Below, piece by piece: positions 4,154 through 59,195 of a DNA stretch of 64,000 bases; the first letter of the stretch is position 1; every line of letters begins with the position of its first letter. The DNA is from Acidobacteriales bacterium 59-55 (GTDB taxonomy: Bacteria > Acidobacteriota > Terriglobia > Terriglobales > Acidobacteriaceae), in the NCBI GenBank assembly GCA_001897435.1, contig MKSV01000007.1, positions 1,302,001 through 1,366,000 on the forward strand, in the 5' to 3' direction. The notes under the pieces are model-generated. The model saw only the letters and a list, made by a program, of their open reading frames with translations, had not been told where the DNA came from and searched no databases. The position numbers and the translations under genes are program-made.

Positions 4154-4175
4154 GCGTCTTCTCTCAGGTGTAGCT

Positions 4176-4255
4176 TCCCTTGTTTGTCATTCCCGAAGCG
4201 AATCTGCGTTTGCTCGCATCACCAAGGCTGCCTCTGAAGAAGAACCGCGCTAAGG
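4176..4255. repeat. Dispersed intergenic repeat, family 1 (copy 1)
   Basis: It holds the core TTTGTCATTCCCGAAGCGAA and ends in a GAAGAAGAACCGC block. Related copies sit at 7335-7419 and 32964-33050, all between genes and in the same orientation. Confidence 0.75.
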
Positions 4256-7122: not shown

Positions 7123-7211
7123 TTGCTGCTCTTTCTATACAGAGGGACGGCCCTCCGCCGCCCGCCTTCGATAAGCCGCCGGAGTCTCTCAAGAACCTCT
7201 GATCAAGTCCA

Positions 7212-7283
7212 GTCCTGTTAAGGGCACGGCTTCAGCCGTGCCGTAAGTGACTTGCCGACAACGCGGCTTTAGCCGCTGAAGGC
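7212..7283. repeat. Dispersed palindromic repeat, family 3 (copy 1)
   Basis: It contains the hairpin GGCACGGCTTCAGCCGTGCC followed by a second, weaker palindrome GGCTTTAGCC. It is clearly related to 22484-22558 and sits inside the hopanoid operon between hpnA and the upstream small gene. It is non-coding and could affect read-through. Confidence 0.75.
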
Positions 7284-7334
7284 ATCTTCCAAGACTTAAT
7301 TAAACTTTCCCCTAGAGTCATTCTCTCTCGCGCG

Positions 7335-7419
7335 TAGCTTCCTTAATTTGTCATTCCCGAAGGGAATCTGCACCTTATTTCAATCGCCCGGAAAATCCAT
7401 CCGAGGAGAACCGCTCTAG
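7335..7419. repeat. Dispersed intergenic repeat, family 1 (copy 2)
   Basis: The core TTTGTCATTCCCGAAGGGAA and tail GAGAACCGC-TCTAG match copies at 4176-4255 and 32964-33050. The CTAG end coincides with the stop codon (7416-7418) of the minus-strand small gene, so the repeat abuts or supplies that gene's 3' end. Confidence 0.75.
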
Positions 7420-22398: not shown

Positions 22399-22420
22399 AG
22401 CACAACCCGCATAATCCGGG

Positions 22421-22459
22421 TGCCCCATGTCCCGCCTCTGGGACATGGGGTTTTCATTT
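22421..22459 (+). terminator. Rho-independent terminator of the tol-pal cluster, formed by a palindromic repeat
   Basis: The arms CCCCATGTCCC and GGGACATGGGG surround loop GCCTCT and are followed by TTTTCATTT. With the preceding GGGTG, the same element in reverse orientation matches 56338-56369 inside mutS over 32 bases. It is the non-coding form of the GGGGCACCC repeat family. Confidence 0.88.
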
Positions 22460-22483
22460 CAACCTAAACAACTCTTGATGTAA

Positions 22484-22558
22484 GTCAGGCTCTGTTAAGG
22501 ACACGGCTTCAGCCGTGTCCTTAACGCTTTGTCTCCCGCGGGCTTTAGCCCCTGAGGT
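22484..22558. repeat. Dispersed palindromic repeat, family 3 (copy 2)
   Basis: The hairpin AAGGACACGGCT / AGCCGTGTCCTT with a 2-base loop is followed by GCGGGCTTTAGCCCCTGA. It matches the copy at 7212-7283 in order and spacing. It is non-coding, between the end of the tol cluster and the convergent gene at 22667. Confidence 0.75.
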
Positions 22559-23763: not shown

Positions 23764-26241
23764 CTACTTCGCGCCGCCGACAGCATGGACCACCAGTTCC
23801 ACCGTCATCGACTGCGTAAGAGCGCCGCCCGTAGCGCCGGTCGCCGTCGCGGTCACGGTGATCGGGTAAGTCTTCACCAGGTCGCCGGACGAATCGCCCG
23901 TGTTGATGCGGCTCCCGCAGCCCGAGCAAAACGCGCACAGCCCCAGCGTCCCCGCCAGAAGAACAGCCGCAGCCCCGATCCTTCCCCGGCGAAATCTTCG
24001 TAGGCGCGAGCGCCAGCCGATCACCGGAAACAGAAGCAGCCCCAACAGCACATCGGAACCGCGAGCGAGCGCAGCAGTCTGCGGCATCGTAACGGTCATC
24101 GTAAAGCTGGCCGGCGTCGCTCCAGGCGGCAGATAGGCCGGGTTGAACGCTGCCGTCGCCAGCGGAGGCAGCCCGCTCGCCGCCAGCGTAATGGGACTGG
24201 ACAGCTCCGCGCCCGCAATCTGCACGGTGAAGTTGAAGTTCGCCACTCCCCCGGCAGGAATCGTCTGCGTAGCCGTTCCCGCCGCGCTCAGCGTAAAGCC
24301 TGGCGTCGTTCCCGGCCCCGGCAGGACCGTAATCAGCGTCGGCGCCGAAGCGCTGGCGTCGAAGTTCGCGCTGCCCGCATAAAACGTCGTCAGGCTATGC
24401 GTGCCGGGCGCAAGCGCGCTGGTGCTGAAACCCGCATCGCCATTCGGAAGCACCGCAGCGGTCAGCAGAGTCGCACTCCCATCCATCAGCGTGACCAACC
24501 CCGAAGGAGCTCCCGCTGTCGTGCTGACCGTGTGCGCCGTCAGCGCAATCGGGCTACCCGCCGCCACCGAGGTCGACGACGCGGCCAGCGTCGTCACCGT
24601 GGGCGCGGGCCTGACCGTCACGCTGGCAGCCACCGCAGTCAGCTTGTAATTCTTCGCCGCTGTCCCGCCGACAGCAACCGAGATGGGATAAGTCCCCACC
24701 GCAGGCGAAGCCGGAATCTGCGCCGTAAAACTCGCCGTAACGCTGCCATCGTCACGCGGCAGCAGGCCGTTGAAGCTCCCCGTCAGCGCGGGAACAGCCT
24801 GCCCATAAAGCAGCGTGACGGCATCGGGCGTGACCACGAGCGGACGCGGCAAGATTTGAAAGGCAAGCGGCTGGCTCTCGATCGCTGCATGAGTCGCGTC
24901 GCCCGAGTAAGCCGCCGTCAGCGTGTAAGCGCCCACCGGCAGCGCGCCCGCATCAAAGACAGCGGCATCGTCCGCCAGCAGGATGCCTCCCACCGTGGTC
25001 GCCGCAGCCGTGGAGTCATCGAGCAGCGTAAAGCTGACAGACCCAGTTGCCGTATTCGCGGCGGCGAGGCTGGCAGTCAGTTCTCCCGTGCCATAGACCA
25101 TCGCAGGCGAAGCCGCGAGCGTCAACGCGCCACCCGCAACCGAAGACACACCCGCGATGGTATGAATCACCGGCGCATCCTCGGCGTCGAGCTGGCGAAC
25201 GCGCCCATTCGCTGTATCCGCCAGCGTCGCCAATCCCCCAGGCGAGATCGCCGCCGCACCGGGTGAGTCCAGCGCTGCCGATGCAGCCGCGCCGCCATCG
25301 CCAGAAAATCCCTGCACGCCATCGCCCGCAACCGTGGTGATGGCGTGCGTCACCGCGTCGATGCGGCGAATGCGGTGGTTGGCGCTATCCGCAATATAGA
25401 GATTGCCGCCGCCGTCGATGCTGAGTCCACGCGGAAGCGCAAGCGCAGCAGCAGTGGCCGCAGTGTCGTCGCCCGAAAACGCCTCGGCCCCTGTGCCTGC
25501 AATCGTCGTAATCACGCCGGTCGCAGCCGCCACCCTGCGGACACGATGATTGTGCGTATCGGCGATATAAAGATTCCCGGCCGCATCGACGGCAAGCCCG
25601 GAGGGCGAGTCGATGGAAGCAGCCGTCGCCGCGCCGCCGTCGCCCGAGAATCCCTGCCTCCCATTGCCCGCAACCGTGGTGATAAGCCCACCAACGGCAG
25701 CAATCTTCCGAACGCGGAAGTTCTCCGTATCGGCGATGTAGAGGTTTCCAGCCTCGTCGAGCGCAAGCCCCGTTGGCAGGTCCAGCCGCGCCGCAGCAGC
25801 CGGGCCGTTGTCGCCCGCAAAGCCAGCGCCTGAACCAGCGACGGTAGCAATCAGGCCCGTCGCGAGGTCGATCCTGCGAATGCGATGGTTATGCGTGTCC
25901 GCTACATAGAGTTTATTGTCCGCGCCCAGCGCCAGCCCCTCCGGCGAATCCAGTCGCGCCGCCACCGCCGGGCCACTATCGCCCGAAAATCCCTGCGTCC
26001 CGGTCCCGGCAATCGTGGTGATAACGCCCGCCGCATCGACCCTGCGGATGGTGTTGCCACCCGTCTCCGCAATATAGAGATTGCCCTGCGCATCGTAGGC
26101 AATCGCCGAAGGAAGCATCAGCGGAAGCGCGGTGGCGGAGGTCTGCGCAGCGAGCGAATCAACCCCAAACACAAGAAGAAGCACGATCCAGAGAGGAGCG
26201 CGGACGCGGCGTAGCGAGGGTGTGATGCTCTGCGAACCCAT
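23764..26241 (-). CDS. Secreted NHL-repeat and Ig-like domain protein
   Basis: This is an 825-residue protein with a signal peptide (ending near SLAAQ). At least five NHL repeats of about 56 residues follow (ITTIAGTGTQGFSGD, LYVADTHNHRIRRID and close variants; about 35-370) and form a beta-propeller. Ig-like/MBG-type domains follow (about 370-700), then a hydrophobic segment around VLLAGTLGLCAFCSGC and a short tail. This architecture is common in acidobacterial envelope proteins. Surface or extracellular binding is likely; no enzymatic site is seen. Confidence 0.85.
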   Translation of the reverse strand: MGSQSITPSLRRVRAPLWIVLLLVFGVDSLAAQTSATALPLMLPSAIAYDAQGNLYIAETGGNTIRRVDAAGVITTIAGTGTQGFSGDSGPAVAARLDSPEGLALGADNKLYVADTHNHRIRRIDLATGLIATVAGSGAGFAGDNGPAAAARLDLPTGLALDEAGNLYIADTENFRVRKIAAVGGLITTVAGNGRQGFSGDGGAATAASIDSPSGLAVDAAGNLYIADTHNHRVRRVAAATGVITTIAGTGAEAFSGDDTAATAAALALPRGLSIDGGGNLYIADSANHRIRRIDAVTHAITTVAGDGVQGFSGDGGAAASAALDSPGAAAISPGGLATLADTANGRVRQLDAEDAPVIHTIAGVSSVAGGALTLAASPAMVYGTGELTASLAAANTATGSVSFTLLDDSTAAATTVGGILLADDAAVFDAGALPVGAYTLTAAYSGDATHAAIESQPLAFQILPRPLVVTPDAVTLLYGQAVPALTGSFNGLLPRDDGSVTASFTAQIPASPAVGTYPISVAVGGTAAKNYKLTAVAASVTVRPAPTVTTLAASSTSVAAGSPIALTAHTVSTTAGAPSGLVTLMDGSATLLTAAVLPNGDAGFSTSALAPGTHSLTTFYAGSANFDASASAPTLITVLPGPGTTPGFTLSAAGTATQTIPAGGVANFNFTVQIAGAELSSPITLAASGLPPLATAAFNPAYLPPGATPASFTMTVTMPQTAALARGSDVLLGLLLFPVIGWRSRLRRFRRGRIGAAAVLLAGTLGLCAFCSGCGSRINTGDSSGDLVKTYPITVTATATGATGGALTQSMTVELVVHAVGGAK

Positions 26242-26440: not shown

Positions 26441-26497
26441 GACCGAAGCAACGGACAGGTTTATCGTCGGTTGCGCAGTGGAGAGACCCCTGTATTT
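26431..26497 (-). repeat. Dispersed palindromic repeat, family 2 (copy 2, reverse)
   Basis: Read on the minus strand it starts AATACAGGGGTCTCTCCACTG and ends GGTCGAGATGACGT. It lies in the 348-base gap between the NHL gene and the glycosidase gene. The rest of that gap shows no gene or clear promoter. Confidence 0.75.
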
Positions 26498-31369: not shown

Positions 31370-31431
31370 CGTCATCTCTACCGAAGCCGCGCGGCATCAT
31401 CGCGCGGCGCAGCGGAGAGACCCCTGTATTT
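31370..31431 (-). repeat. Dispersed palindromic repeat, family 2 (copy 3, reverse)
   Basis: On the minus strand it begins AATACAGGGGTCTCTCCGCTG, has a central GCGCGATGATGCCGCGCGG palindrome and ends GGTAGAGATGACG. It sits in the 275-base divergent region between the SDR gene and the mutarotase gene, so any promoters for the two must flank it. Confidence 0.78.
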
Positions 31432-32906: not shown

Positions 32907-32944
32907 AAAACCACGTCCCGATTCTGGGACGTGGTTTTTTGGAT
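32907..32944 (+). terminator. Rho-independent terminator after the lipoprotein gene
   Basis: The arms AAAACCACGTCCC and GGGACGTGGTTTT enclose loop GATTCT, and a T-run follows. The CCACGTCCC-AGA-GGGACGTGG core (minus strand) resembles the repeat that forms the tol-pal terminator, but the GGGGCACCC end is missing. Confidence 0.88.
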
Positions 32945-32963
32945 TAGAGCTATTTCCTCTCAG

Positions 32964-33050
32964 TGCAGATTCCTTTGTTTGTCATTCCCGAAGGGAATCC
33001 GCGTTTTGATCGAATCACTAAGACTACATCTGGAGAAGAACCGCATCTAG
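32964..33050. repeat. Dispersed intergenic repeat, family 1 (copy 3)
   Basis: The core TTTGTCATTCCCGAAGGGAA, the CGAATCACTAAG middle and the GAGAAGAACCGC-TCTAG end match copies at 4176 and 7335. It is non-coding, between a terminator and engB. Confidence 0.75.
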
Positions 33051-46933: not shown

Positions 46934-47752
46934 TTACTTCTTCGACCAGTGATCCTCGATGGCTTCGACCAGCGCGGGTAAGGTTGGCTCGGCAGCCTCG
47001 ACGGCGGGCTCAAGCCCCAGGTCGCGCAGCGCCTGCGATGTGATCGGGCCGATCGAGATCAGGGCGATGGAGGCGGGAAGGACCACGCCGGCGGCTTCGA
47101 GCAACGCAACGAGGTTGCGCGCGGTCGAGGCGCTGGTGAAGGTGATGGCGTCGGGCAAGGCGTCCGGCTGGGCGAAGAGTTGCTGAAGCTCTGCGATCGA
47201 GGCGGGCGGAATCCGGGTGCGGTAGGCGTCGGCGATGGTGAGATGCGCGCCGGCGGCGGTGAGAGCCTCGGGCAGAACGTCGCGAGACTCGGCGGCACGG
47301 ACGAGCAGGAAGCGCTTGCCGACTGCCTCGGGGATGAGGGCTTTCGCGAGCGATTCGGCGACGTAGTGCGGGGGGACGAGATCGACCGGGAGGCCAATTC
47401 CCTGCACCGCGCGGGCGGTGGCGGGACCGATGACGGCGACCTTCGGGGTTGTGGAGACCCACGTCCGAGAGTCCGGGCGTGGGGCACTCGGGTTTTGCTG
47501 GCTGAGAAGCTGGCGACGCTGGTGGAAGACCTCGACGGCGTTGGCGCTGGTGAAGAGGAGCCAGTCGTAGCTTTCGAGCTGCTTGAGCGCGTCGTCAAGT
47601 GGAGCGTAGGTCTCCGGAGGGACGATCTCAATGGTCGGGATGAGGATGGGCGTCGCTCCGAGAGCCTCGATCAGCCGGGCCAGTTCGGAGGCCTGGCGAC
47701 GGGTGCGGGTGACGAGGACGCGCTTGACCGGTCTGCTGTGGAGAGTAGCCAT
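46934..47752 (-). CDS. hemD: Uroporphyrinogen-III synthase
   Basis: This 272-residue HemD closes hydroxymethylbilane to uroporphyrinogen III. Two alternating Rossmann-like domains are visible (VLVTRTRRQASELARLIEAL at the start, LLFTSANAVEVF, AVIGPATARAVQ, ITFTSASTARNLV, ISIGPITSQALRDLG). Residues 87-99 are encoded by a palindromic repeat-like sequence (47457-47492) between FHQRRQLL and VAVIGPAT. The gene is convergent with nth and close to hemC. Confidence 0.9.
   Translation of the reverse strand: MATLHSRPVKRVLVTRTRRQASELARLIEALGATPILIPTIEIVPPETYAPLDDALKQLESYDWLLFTSANAVEVFHQRRQLLSQQNPSAPRPDSRTWVSTTPKVAVIGPATARAVQGIGLPVDLVPPHYVAESLAKALIPEAVGKRFLLVRAAESRDVLPEALTAAGAHLTIADAYRTRIPPASIAELQQLFAQPDALPDAITFTSASTARNLVALLEAAGVVLPASIALISIGPITSQALRDLGLEPAVEAAEPTLPALVEAIEDHWSKK
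47457..47492 (+). repeat. GGGGCACCC-type palindromic repeat inside hemD (diverged)
   Basis: The element reads CCCACGTCCGAGAG, then TCCGGGCGTGGGGCACTCGGG with near-palindromic arms. Layout and most bases match the 32-base element at 56338-56369, with GGGGCACTC for GGGGCACCC. It is read in frame by hemD from the opposite strand, adding about 12 residues. Confidence 0.6.
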
Positions 47753-54866: not shown

Positions 54867-54907
54867 TCCCACCCATCGCGATGAGACTGCGATGGATGGG
54901 GCACCCG
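54867..54907 (+). repeat. GGGGCACCC-type palindromic repeat upstream of mutS
   Basis: This 41-base element runs TCCCACCCATCGC, GATGAGACT, GCGATGGATGGGGCACCCG; the two ends pair. It is identical to 55600-55640 inside mutS. The 303-base gap around it holds no gene. An in-frame ATG lies inside it, but translation of mutS from there is not supported. Confidence 0.88.
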
Positions 54908-54997
54908 AACACCGAAACCCGGAGATTTTGGGCGAGCCTGGAAAAGACGGATAACGGCAGGCGTGGCGGTGGGTGCGGTATTCTGGCGTTTCTGCTT

Positions 54998-57796
54998 ATG
55001 GCAATCGAAACGACAACGGAGACAACGCTGACACCGGTGATGCGGCAGTACTTTGCGGCGAAGGAGCAGTATCCCGACTGCCTGATGTTTTGCCGGATCG
55101 GGGACTTCTACGAGCTGTTCTATGAGGACGCGATTACCGCATCGCGCGAACTGCAACTGACGCTGACGGCGCGCGACCGGGAGAAGAAGCAGCCCATGTG
55201 CGGCGTTCCTTACCACGCGGCGGAAGGGTACTTTCAGCGGCTGCTGCGCAAAGGGTATCGCATCGCCGTCTGCGAGCAGATGGAGGACCCGAAGCAGACC
55301 AGGACGATTGTGAAGCGGGAGGTGACCCGGGTGCTGACGCCGGGGACGGCGGTCGATCCGGCGCTGGGGGCGGAGCAGAGTAATTATCTGGCCAGCGTTG
55401 CGGTACTCGATAAACGTGTGGGGCTGGCGCTGCTGGATCTCTCGACGGGAGAGTTTCGCGCAACCGAGTTTGCGGGAGCCGAGGGGTGGGCCGATGCAGT
55501 CGATGAATTGGGGCGGGTGAGGCCGGTGGAGTTGCTGTATCCGCAGGGTGGGCTGGCGGGAATGGACGGTCACTCCGGCGGTCGTTCGAGCGGTTTACTT
55601 CCCACCCATCGCGATGAGACTGCGATGGATGGGGCACCCGGAAGCTCGGGGCCGGATGAGACGAAGGAGGTCGAATCGGCGGGGCTGGATGCGATTCGGA
55701 CGAAGACGGCGGTGGAGGATTGGGTGTTTACCGCCGACTATGCGGTGCCGCTGCTGCGGAATCATCTGCGGGTGCAGTCGCTCGACGGGATGGGACTGGG
55801 AGGGCATGAGACGGCGGCGGTGGCGGCGGGGGCGCTACTGCACTACATGCGGGCGACCAAGCAGGGGGGCCTCGAGCATGTGGATGGGCTGCGGTTTTAC
55901 GAGCGGTCGACGTGCCTTGAACTGGATGCGGTGAGTGTAAGAAATCTGGAGCTTGTCGAACCGTTGTTCTCGGGGGAGTCGGCGCAGACGACCTTGTTTT
56001 ATACGCTCGATGCCTGCTCGACGCCGATGGGCAAGCGGTTGCTGCGGGCGACGCTGCTGCGGCCTTCCAATGAATTGACAGAGATTGAAGCGCGGCTGGA
56101 GGCGGTGGGCGAGGCGACGGCGGATTTGCGGCGGCGCGAAGAGCTGCGGCGGTCGATGCATGGGGTGCTCGACCTGGAGCGGCTGCTGGGGCGCGTGGCG
56201 CTCGACTCGGCGGGGCCGAGAGAGGTGATGGCGCTGGCCGGGACGCTGGGATGCCTGCCCGGGATTCAGGCGGCGGTGGGGACGTTCGAGGCGGGGTTGT
56301 GGCGGAGGCTGGGGGGAGTGATTGCCGCTGCGGAAACCCATGTCCCAGAGGCGGGACATGGGGCACCCAATCTTGTGGCTGGGTCTGTGACGGCATTCGA
56401 TGCGATGGAAGATCTGCACGAGATGATCGTGGAGACGATTGCGGAGGAGCCTCCGGCGACGCTGGCCGATGGCGGGGTGATTCGCGCGGGCGTGGATAAG
56501 GAGCTGGACGAGTTGCGCGAGTTGAGCCGGAGCGGGCGGCAGGCGCTGGCGGCGATTGAAGAACGCGAGCGGCAGCGGACGGGGATCGGATCGCTGAAGG
56601 TGCGGTTCAACTCGGTGTTTGGCTACTACCTTGAGGTGACGAAGGCGAACGCGAAGGCGGTTCCGGCGGACTATGAGCGCAAGCAGACGCTGGTCAACGC
56701 GGAACGGTTTACGACTCCTGAGTTGAAGGAGTACGAGACGAAGATTCTGACTGCGCAGGAGCGGTCGGGCGAGATCGAACGCAGATTGTTTGCGGAGCTG
56801 CGGCGGCAGTTGCTGGATGCGGCGAAGCGGATGCGGGAGACAGCGCGGCGGGTAGCTGAGATCGATATGCTGGGGTGCTTTGCGCATCTGGCGGCGTTGC
56901 GCGGATGGGTGAAGCCTGTAGTGGATGCGAGCGGCGTGCTGGAGTTTGTGGGCGCTCGGCATCCCGTGGTGGAGCGGCGGATGGAGGAGTCGGGAGGCGG
57001 GCGGTTTGTGCCGAACTCTGTGCATCTCGATGCCGATGCGGGGCCGGCGGTGCTGCTGATTACGGGGCCGAACATGGGCGGCAAGAGTACTTATCTGCGG
57101 CAGGCGGCGCTGCTGGTGGTGATGGCGCAGTGCGGCTGTTTTGTTCCGGCGGAACGGATGCAGGTGGGACTGGTCGACCGGGTCTATACGCGAATCGGCG
57201 CGAGCGATAACGTGGCGCGGGGGCGGTCGACGTTCATGGTGGAGATGACGGAGACGGCAGCGATTCTGAATACGGCGACGAACCGGTCGCTGGTGCTGCT
57301 CGACGAGATGGGGCGAGGGACGGCGACCTATGACGGGCTTTCGCTGGCCTGGGCTACGGTCGAGCATCTGCACGACAGGATTGGAGCGCGGACGCTGTTT
57401 GCGACGCATTACCACGAGCTAACACTGCTGGCGGAGCAGCTTCAGCGGCTGACGAATCTACGGGTGACGGTGAAGGAGACGCCTTCGGGGATTGTGTTTC
57501 TGCATACAGTGGAGGCAGGGGCGGCGAGCAAGAGTTACGGCATCGAGGTGGCCCGGCTGGCGGGATTGCCGGGGGCGGTGATCTCGCGGGCGCGCGAGGT
57601 GCTGAAGGTGCATGAACGGGCGGAGACGCGGCAGATTCGCGAGGCCGCTCCGGTAACGCCGCAGATGCAGATGACGATGTTTACGCCGCTGTCGCAGAGG
57701 ATTGTGGATAGGCTGGGCGAGGTGGATGTGGATGGTCTGACTCCGCGGGAGGCGCTGAATTTGTTGGCGGAGTTGCAGCGGGAGTTGAAGGGATAA
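54998..57796 (+). CDS. mutS: DNA mismatch repair protein MutS
   Basis: This 932-residue mismatch-recognition ATPase has the mismatch-binding F37-x-E39 (GDFYELFYED), connector and lever domains, Walker A GPNMGGKSTYLRQ (starting near residue 688), the ST-rich FMVEMTETAAIL motif and Walker B LVLLDEMGRGTATYDG. ATG 54998 gives the usual start just before TLTPVMRQYFAAK. Two stretches are foreign-looking: residues 201-214 and 447-457 are encoded by palindromic repeats found elsewhere in the window, in the connector and before the lever/clamp region. The protein is about 50-80 residues longer than the usual MutS. Confidence 0.95.
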   Translation: MAIETTTETTLTPVMRQYFAAKEQYPDCLMFCRIGDFYELFYEDAITASRELQLTLTARDREKKQPMCGVPYHAAEGYFQRLLRKGYRIAVCEQMEDPKQTRTIVKREVTRVLTPGTAVDPALGAEQSNYLASVAVLDKRVGLALLDLSTGEFRATEFAGAEGWADAVDELGRVRPVELLYPQGGLAGMDGHSGGRSSGLLPTHRDETAMDGAPGSSGPDETKEVESAGLDAIRTKTAVEDWVFTADYAVPLLRNHLRVQSLDGMGLGGHETAAVAAGALLHYMRATKQGGLEHVDGLRFYERSTCLELDAVSVRNLELVEPLFSGESAQTTLFYTLDACSTPMGKRLLRATLLRPSNELTEIEARLEAVGEATADLRRREELRRSMHGVLDLERLLGRVALDSAGPREVMALAGTLGCLPGIQAAVGTFEAGLWRRLGGVIAAAETHVPEAGHGAPNLVAGSVTAFDAMEDLHEMIVETIAEEPPATLADGGVIRAGVDKELDELRELSRSGRQALAAIEERERQRTGIGSLKVRFNSVFGYYLEVTKANAKAVPADYERKQTLVNAERFTTPELKEYETKILTAQERSGEIERRLFAELRRQLLDAAKRMRETARRVAEIDMLGCFAHLAALRGWVKPVVDASGVLEFVGARHPVVERRMEESGGGRFVPNSVHLDADAGPAVLLITGPNMGGKSTYLRQAALLVVMAQCGCFVPAERMQVGLVDRVYTRIGASDNVARGRSTFMVEMTETAAILNTATNRSLVLLDEMGRGTATYDGLSLAWATVEHLHDRIGARTLFATHYHELTLLAEQLQRLTNLRVTVKETPSGIVFLHTVEAGAASKSYGIEVARLAGLPGAVISRAREVLKVHERAETRQIREAAPVTPQMQMTMFTPLSQRIVDRLGEVDVDGLTPREALNLLAELQRELKG
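55600..55640 (+). repeat. GGGGCACCC-type palindromic repeat inside mutS (first)
   Basis: This 41-base element is identical to 54867-54907. It is read in frame as PTHRDETAMDGAP within a low-complexity stretch rich in Gly/Ser/Asp. It lies in the MutS connector region, which tolerates length change. Confidence 0.88.
56338..56369 (+). repeat. GGGGCACCC-type palindromic repeat inside mutS (second)
   Basis: The arms CCCATGTCCC and GGGACATGGG enclose AGAGGC, and GCACCCA follows. It is identical over 32 bases to the reverse strand of the tol-pal terminator (22421-22450). In mutS it is read as THVPEAGHGAPN. Confidence 0.88.
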
Positions 57797-57828: not shown

Positions 57829-57886
57829 AAATACAGGGGTCTCTCCGCTGCGGCGGCAAAAGCGCCGCCTTCGGTCGAGATGACGT
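57829..57886 (+). repeat. Dispersed palindromic repeat, family 2 (copy 4)
   Basis: It starts AATACAGGGGTCTCTCCGCTG, has a GCGGC-rich middle palindrome and ends CGGTCGAGATGACG. It is non-coding, between mutS and anmK. Confidence 0.8.
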
Positions 57887-59155: not shown

Positions 59156-59195
59156 GCCCACCCATGCGATGAGGCCGCATGAATGGGGCACCCGG
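59156..59195 (+). repeat. GGGGCACCC-type palindromic repeat, after anmK
   Basis: The left arm CCCACCCATGCG, middle ATGAGGCC and right arm GCATGAATGGGGCACCCGG form a variant of the 54867 element. It is non-coding. A family 2 element follows 50 bases later. Confidence 0.82.

Follow-up and report, generated by a model that had tools for sequence, protein, structure and literature searches.

Introduction

Repetitive extragenic palindromic (REP) elements are described together with REP-associated tyrosine transposases (RAYTs), which are flanked by two REPs, always inverted, that co-evolve with them (Nunvar 2010, PMC2817692). The tetranucleotide GTAG and irregularities of the stem act in binding and cleavage, with differences between systems (PMC8266576). 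REPs of the GTAG and CGTC kinds have been reported within coding regions, repair genes being numerous among the genes concerned, and it was speculated that repair is altered where such genes contain a REP; in acidobacteria, the same study mentions RAYT-like genes with long terminal inverted repeats (TIRs) on their flanks, some with the motif GGGGWSAS (Di Nocera 2013, PMC3733652). Rickettsia palindromic elements (RPEs), of about 150 bp, lie in frame inside genes (PMC10969869). Here we describe a family of short hairpin elements in a window of 64,000 nucleotides from Acidobacteriales bacterium 59-55 (G000:C7:1302001-1366000), the genome of which (G000) comprises 4.92 Mb in 12 contigs. Two of the elements lie within mutS. 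A first reading of the window from its sequence (the original prediction) had compared them with RPEs; we consider it very probable that they form a REP family mobilised by a RAYT, some in-frame copies of which are tolerated in loops of conserved proteins. The nearest named match of the mutS gene belongs to an Edaphobacter metagenome-assembled genome (82% identical), and the same-genus comparison group used below is probably Edaphobacter.

Hairpin structure, copy number and distribution

According to the original prediction, a 41-base palindrome upstream of mutS recurs identically inside the gene, and the two copies indeed agree in 41/41 bases (Table 1). The second palindrome that it placed in mutS has the end GGGGCACCC as described, but its core (56337-56368) begins one base further to the left and its stem is a different one; we refer to the two kinds as A-type and B-type. 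Neither is a perfect palindrome, although both are self-complementary: the A-type hairpin has 11 pairs with one C.A mismatch and a 9-nt loop, and the B-type hairpin has 10 pairs and a 6-nt loop. In aligned copies the two types have a common outer frame, CCCA...TGGGGCACCC, and different stems. The elements end in GGGGCACCC (reverse complement GGGTGCCCC), with neither a GTAG nor a CGTC tetranucleotide at either end, and the core lengths are 31-43 nt (mostly 32-43), plus two partial matches of 22 and 27 nt.

Paired stem cells amount to 97.4% for the A-type (14 copies) and 99.1% for the B-type (11 distinct copies), values that were matched by 0/500 shuffles, and in both alignments some stem positions vary on both sides yet remain paired. 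The pattern CCCAN{10,40}TGGGGCACCC gives 93 raw matches in G000, nested ones being counted twice, compared with 0 for the reversed control. This control, together with stem pairing beyond all shuffles, rules out chance palindromes. With covariance models (E below 0.001, matches above this value being left unclassified), at least 48 A-type and at least 43 B-type copies are found in the genome; both counts are lower bounds, as 150 of 6395 first-look candidates were scored with the A model and 150 of 3165 with the B model.

The pattern is present in 59/60 members of the genus. Among 297 genomes of the phylum, high pattern counts occur only in the family of the window, and there not in all genera. 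Outside the family, counts are comparable to those of the reversed control; among the matches listed most are, as judged by eye, not hairpins of this kind.

Association with a transposase

An open reading frame (ORF) of 175 aa at C3:259211-259738 matches NF047646, REP_Tyr_transpos, the NCBIfam model for REP-associated tyrosine transposases, with 100 bits against a cut-off of 80. It is flanked by two A elements per side, in inverted orientation, one of which overlaps the 3' end of the RAYT gene. RAYT matches with an E value of 1e-8 or better were obtained in 45/60 genus members, some of them distant, at about 30% identity. A strict-pattern copy lies within 450 bp of the RAYT in 25 of the 30 genus loci fetched (0.55 expected), and on both sides in 14/30, a count that takes the RAYT start as 1500 bases into the locus and fails near contig ends. 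With the RAYT placed by tblastn, a hairpin copy is found within the same distance in 27 of these 30 loci. Furthermore, different RAYT lineages have different stems, stem distance correlates with RAYT distance over 27 loci (Mantel r 0.45; 0/5000 permutations), and A, B and C stems (the C type is described below) are found beside the RAYTs of G000, G019 and G036. Genomes with a RAYT match have a median of 59 pattern matches (n=45), compared with 21 in those without (n=15; P 0.005). A decayed RAYT with a stop is present at C7:267670-267938 beside a degenerate element, the stem of which is like that at the RAYTs of G048 and G001.

Two other Y1_Tnp genes, G000:C9:96247-96573 and G000:C6:147912-148199, were considered as a source of the elements and rejected, since they sit between GGGGCTTTAGCCCC-type repeats instead. 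A CACGGCTTCAGCCGTG-type repeat lies near the gene on C6, and window positions 7205-7240 and 22482-22517 hold further copies of it.

Copies inside genes

Genes were called by a codon-score script and not by an annotation pipeline. Thirteen of the 90 copies with context lie inside nine called genes, and the other 77 were not placed in a called gene; relative to a coding fraction of about 0.8, genic copies are strongly depleted. The elements are thus dispersed, as the original prediction held. The genes concerned are mutS and mnmG, with two copies each, the RNase R gene, with three, and those for DNA ligase, a thiE-like gene, ispE, polA, argS and a hemD-like gene, with one each, where the thiE-like and hemD-like identities derive from matches below curated cut-offs. 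An element restricted to mutS is ruled out by the copies in intergenic DNA and in the eight further called genes, one of which is doubtful. The thiE-like copy lies 17 residues past the called start and ahead of the matched domain (residue 48 or later), and may for this reason be located outside the real gene.

Open frames run through all 13 in-gene copies, of which 6 are in sense and 7 in antisense orientation. The frame that reads Gly-Ala-Pro from the conserved end is used by 11/13 (in the hemD-like gene, Ser-Ala-Pro), with P 0.0002 at one third for copies that are not strictly independent. The in-gene A copies are 39 nt long in 5/5 cases, whereas the length is divisible by three in 17/43 other A copies (P 0.015). 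In-gene copies are also clustered, with 5 same-gene pairs compared with an expected number of about 0.03, a figure based on assumed values of about 4100 for the gene number and 1.6 for the length factor.

In argS, the gene of G000 is exactly 33 nt longer at the insert, and the site is empty in the congeners G023, G001 and G048. At this argS loop, G014 and G032 have a different stem, with orientation and frame unchanged; an element is present in 3 of 30 loci fetched, and one of the 30 (G057) gave a wrong ORF. As for MnmG, residues 133-209 and 601-670, which span both elements, are skipped in the alignments shown. Two of the three RNase R copies are likewise found in skipped alignment stretches, and the third is located in the C-terminal tail, which is weakly aligned in one of two cases. 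Elements occur in 4 of 30 RNase R loci fetched, out of 59 genomes with a match, and the sites differ between them. IspE is less clear as an insert because the best alignment runs weakly through it, ending at 214.

A group of three A elements, all oriented alike, spaced at about 109 bp and with a core as in the mutS copy, is present at G000:C7:905156-905413. A and B elements are clustered at the contig starts G000:C4:1-28000 and C6:1-8100; a copy starts at base 28 of both contigs, which suggests that the assembly may have broken at repeats. In the RNase R gene (G000:C3:504035-506833), the peptide RHPERSEGAP near an A element looks like a translated CGTC-type repeat.

MutS in this genome and across the genus

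Both elements in mutS are in frame and add residues, as the original prediction held. The protein, which it regarded as unusually long, measures 922 aa from a shared start motif, compared with 869-892 in aligned congeners without inserts. The segments 185-241 and 433-470 are skipped in all three PDB alignments shown, and many congener MutS sequences align piecewise, with breaks at about 190-226 and 440-465. In an AlphaFold model (40 sequences) with a mean predicted local distance difference test score (pLDDT) of 79.4, two of the five segments with pLDDT below 50 are 190-226 and 443-464. Invariant columns of the MutS alignment are retained despite the inserts. The MutS of G023 lacks the B element at site 2.

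Beyond the genus but within the family, the strict-pattern element is found in 0/38 mutS ORFs (40 fetched of 76 genomes with a match, minus the genus member G057 and G388, which had no usable ORF). This rules out that the residues are ancestral in MutS, and orthologues lack them, in line with what was first proposed. Genomes of other genera can be rich in copies despite an element-free mutS, for instance G192 with 297 pattern matches, and some of their mutS genes have long loop-1 linkers without an element.

Within the genus, 52 of 60 members, including G000, gave an aligned mutS. A complete mutS was not available for G004, G005, G020, G027 and G046, and G049, G056 and G029 were dropped as rows without the start motif; later inspection of these three revealed elements by peptide in G056, none in G029 and at most one degenerate element in G049. 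Site 1 and/or site 2 bears an element of kinds A-D in 20/52 members, with types assigned by eye and degenerate copies (G008, G022 and G035) included; the strict scanner identified A/B or D elements in 14/52 mutS ORFs and reported no C copy. The C type is longer and has a KMGHP frame, and the D type gives the peptide VLRSAKDD and similar ones. On a MutS tree computed without the loops, parsimony requires 5, 2, 3 and 5 changes for A, B, C and D at site 1, and 2, 5, 2 and 2 changes at site 2, making 26 state changes in total. In G023, G021 and G017, elements of type A or B are also present in a third loop, located near residue 680, as is, judging by the peptide, the case in G056. The element family is genus-wide, and the frequency of hits on a single protein is unusual. 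Pattern copies are more numerous in genomes with mutS inserts (median 91.5, n=20) than in those without (median 46, n=32; P 0.002), as expected if insertion reflects exposure plus tolerance. In G023 and G048, the 450 bases that precede mutS contain no copy of the element.

Tandem ATTTCCACAGG / TTATCCACAG units (peptide STEISTG) enlarge MutS site 2 in one clade, comprising G009, G022, G008, G035, G038, G017 and G056. We did not include the ATTTCCACAGG tandem of this G009 clade (type E) among the REPs. The sequence TTATCCACA may resemble a DnaA box.

Directly after mutS, a different palindromic repeat is located at 57829..57885 on the minus strand. Its reverse complement begins CGTCATC, related copies are present at 26473-26497 and 31405-31431, and it is rather like the D-type MutS inserts of congeners; it may be a CGTC-type REP.

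Features of the window

Table 1. Elements and genes of the window (positions counted from its first base)
Feature	Position	Strand	Basis
Probable B-type REP, intergenic	22417..22450	-	Covariance-model match G000:C7:1324417-1324450
Weak partial B	32911-32934		Within the window
hemD-like gene (uroporphyrinogen-III synthase), 272 aa	46934..47752	-	NCBIfam models, best E 9e-34, below curated cut-offs
Probable B-type REP inside the hemD-like gene	47457..47490	+	Antisense to the gene, in frame, peptide SAPRPDSRTWVS
Probable A-type REP, intergenic, upstream of mutS	54867..54907	+	Covariance-model match G000:C7:1356867-1356907; 41-base identity to 55600-55640
mutS, 932 aa	54998..57796	+	NCBIfam NF003810 and TIGR01070 above cut-off; conserved MutS columns kept
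Probable A-type REP in mutS, site 1	55600..55640	+	In frame, residues 202-214 PTHRDETAMDGAP
Probable B-type REP in mutS, site 2	56336..56369	+	In frame, residues 447-457 THVPEAGHGAP
Probable A-type REP, intergenic	59156..59194	+	Covariance-model match G000:C7:1361156-1361194

Two other kinds of repeat were observed in the window. A 48-bp repeat, TTTGTCATTCCCGAAG(G/C)GAATC, the right half of which is palindromic, is present in three copies at 4160-4207, 7324-7371 and 32955-33002. At 25261-26085, two segments recur four and five times in units about 170 bp apart, which perhaps encode a repeat protein.

Proposed mechanism and alternative explanations

In the reading that we favour, RAYTs, as HUH/Y1 transposases, would mobilise the elements as single-stranded hairpins. 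Each RAYT lineage would recognise its own stem, with the frame CCCA...TGGGGCACCC fixed and the self-complementary stem variable. Most insertions would land or survive between genes, and those in flexible surface loops could survive if the frame is kept and no stop is met. The gene would then be translated with 11-13 extra residues, and such inserts would probably be retained as near-neutral. Because MutS has at least three tolerant loops, different element families may have accumulated in it across species.

Several observations weigh against mobilisation by a RAYT as the full account. In the 16 RAYT loci with copies on two sides (that of G000 included), the orientation of the nearest flanking copies is inverted in 8 loci and direct in the other 8, and for this reason our confidence was lowered slightly. 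At E 1e-8, 15/60 congeners have no RAYT match (by NF047646, 13 of these are without a match and 2 have fragments below the cut-off), and the RAYT-less genomes G005 and G057 hold as many as 215 and 157 pattern matches, which indicates that copies persist without a current transposase. Two stem types are found at some RAYT flanks, and the elements bear neither of the tags GTAG and CGTC. In MutS, site 2 exceeds the element alone, with 120 nt in G000 compared with 45 in G023. The flanking codons of site-1 A elements are common to several, also distant, species, which makes the number of independent insertions uncertain; the site-1 A copies could be one old insertion with losses.

The same codons are what would be expected if the elements spread mainly via gene conversion or homologous recombination, in which case site 1 of MutS would hold one old A insertion that other copies have overwritten. 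The identity of the mutS copy over 41 bases to a copy 733 bp upstream, although the stem letters at that site differ in G048 and G023, as well as the many copy-bearing genomes without a detectable RAYT, would also agree with such a process. We nevertheless find it improbable, since the flanks beyond the two identical copies differ, comparison of argS with three relatives shows a clean insert of net 33 bp, and B, C and D elements occupy identical MutS loops elsewhere; the RAYT association likewise argues against it. Conversion may modify existing copies. A role in mutator tuning is less probable still: here the MutS loops would be recurrent landing sites kept by selection, and inserts in MutS and other repair proteins would be selected for changing mismatch repair, different REP families altering repair or partner binding and thereby tuning the mutation rate of the host. 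Repeated hits on mutS by different families, copies in polA and the DNA ligase gene, and the many REP-tagged repair genes of other taxa (PMC3733652) point in this direction. However, only 3/9 hit genes are DNA-repair, polymerase or ligase genes, the others (mnmG, RNase R, argS, ispE, hemD-like and thiE-like) not being repair genes, and the invariant MutS columns are kept while the inserts fall in predicted disorder, as for tolerated inserts.

With respect to RPEs, the original prediction captured the behaviour of the elements, namely in-frame presence within unrelated genes (PMC10969869), but kinship, whether as members of that family or through horizontal transfer, is extremely unlikely. The length of RPEs does not agree with the 32-43 bp that is typical here, RAYTs with matching stems accompany the present elements, and most copies were not placed in a called gene. 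Because the evidence ties them to RAYTs, the elements are better regarded as REPs than as relatives of RPEs.

Given RAYT-mobilised REPs, the genus provides a natural experiment, spanning many species, on the addition of peptide to conserved proteins by mobile DNA: identical MutS loops hold different elements in some species and none in others, and the transposase and matching stems are known. The speculation of 2013 on altered repair thereby becomes directly testable, and insertion-tolerant loops are pointed out in ArgS, MnmG, RNase R, PolA and IspE.

Comparison with known systems

Neither the GGGGCACCC-ended family nor repeated hits on MutS loops were found in the literature searched, and REPs inside acidobacterial mutS were not found among the open-access titles and opening abstracts listed. 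Intragenic REPs, some of them in repair genes, were already published in 2013 for other phyla.

As for RPEs, the elements are inserted in frame into conserved genes in which the extra peptide is tolerated, but RPEs are longer and occur in another taxon (PMC10969869), whereas the present elements lie mostly outside genes and are tied to RAYTs; the two are set apart by description. The similarity to REP/RAYT systems is closer. It includes the short, imperfectly palindromic repeat, with copy numbers from tens to hundreds, and the mismatch in the A-type stem (PMC2817692, PMC8266576), as well as a RAYT flanked by copies of the repeat and co-variation of RAYT and stem (PMC2817692). Unlike those systems, the present family has no GTAG or GT(A/G)G head but a fixed end, GGGGCACCC (reverse complement GGGTGCCCC), and inverted flanks in just 8/16 two-sided loci, where PMC2817692 describes them as always inverted. 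With neither a GTAG nor a CGTC end, the elements would be RAYT-associated REPs outside both super-families. Within genes, the closest parallel is PMC3733652, in which REPs in coding regions, those of repair genes included, add residues, and recB of two Xanthomonas species is hit at about one site. The phyla and genes are different there, and mutS is absent from the main text, the gene list being in Additional file 3. The acidobacterial RAYT-like genes of that paper have long TIRs, whereas hairpins with the end GGGGCACC flank the genes described here, and elements occupy the same loops in many species.

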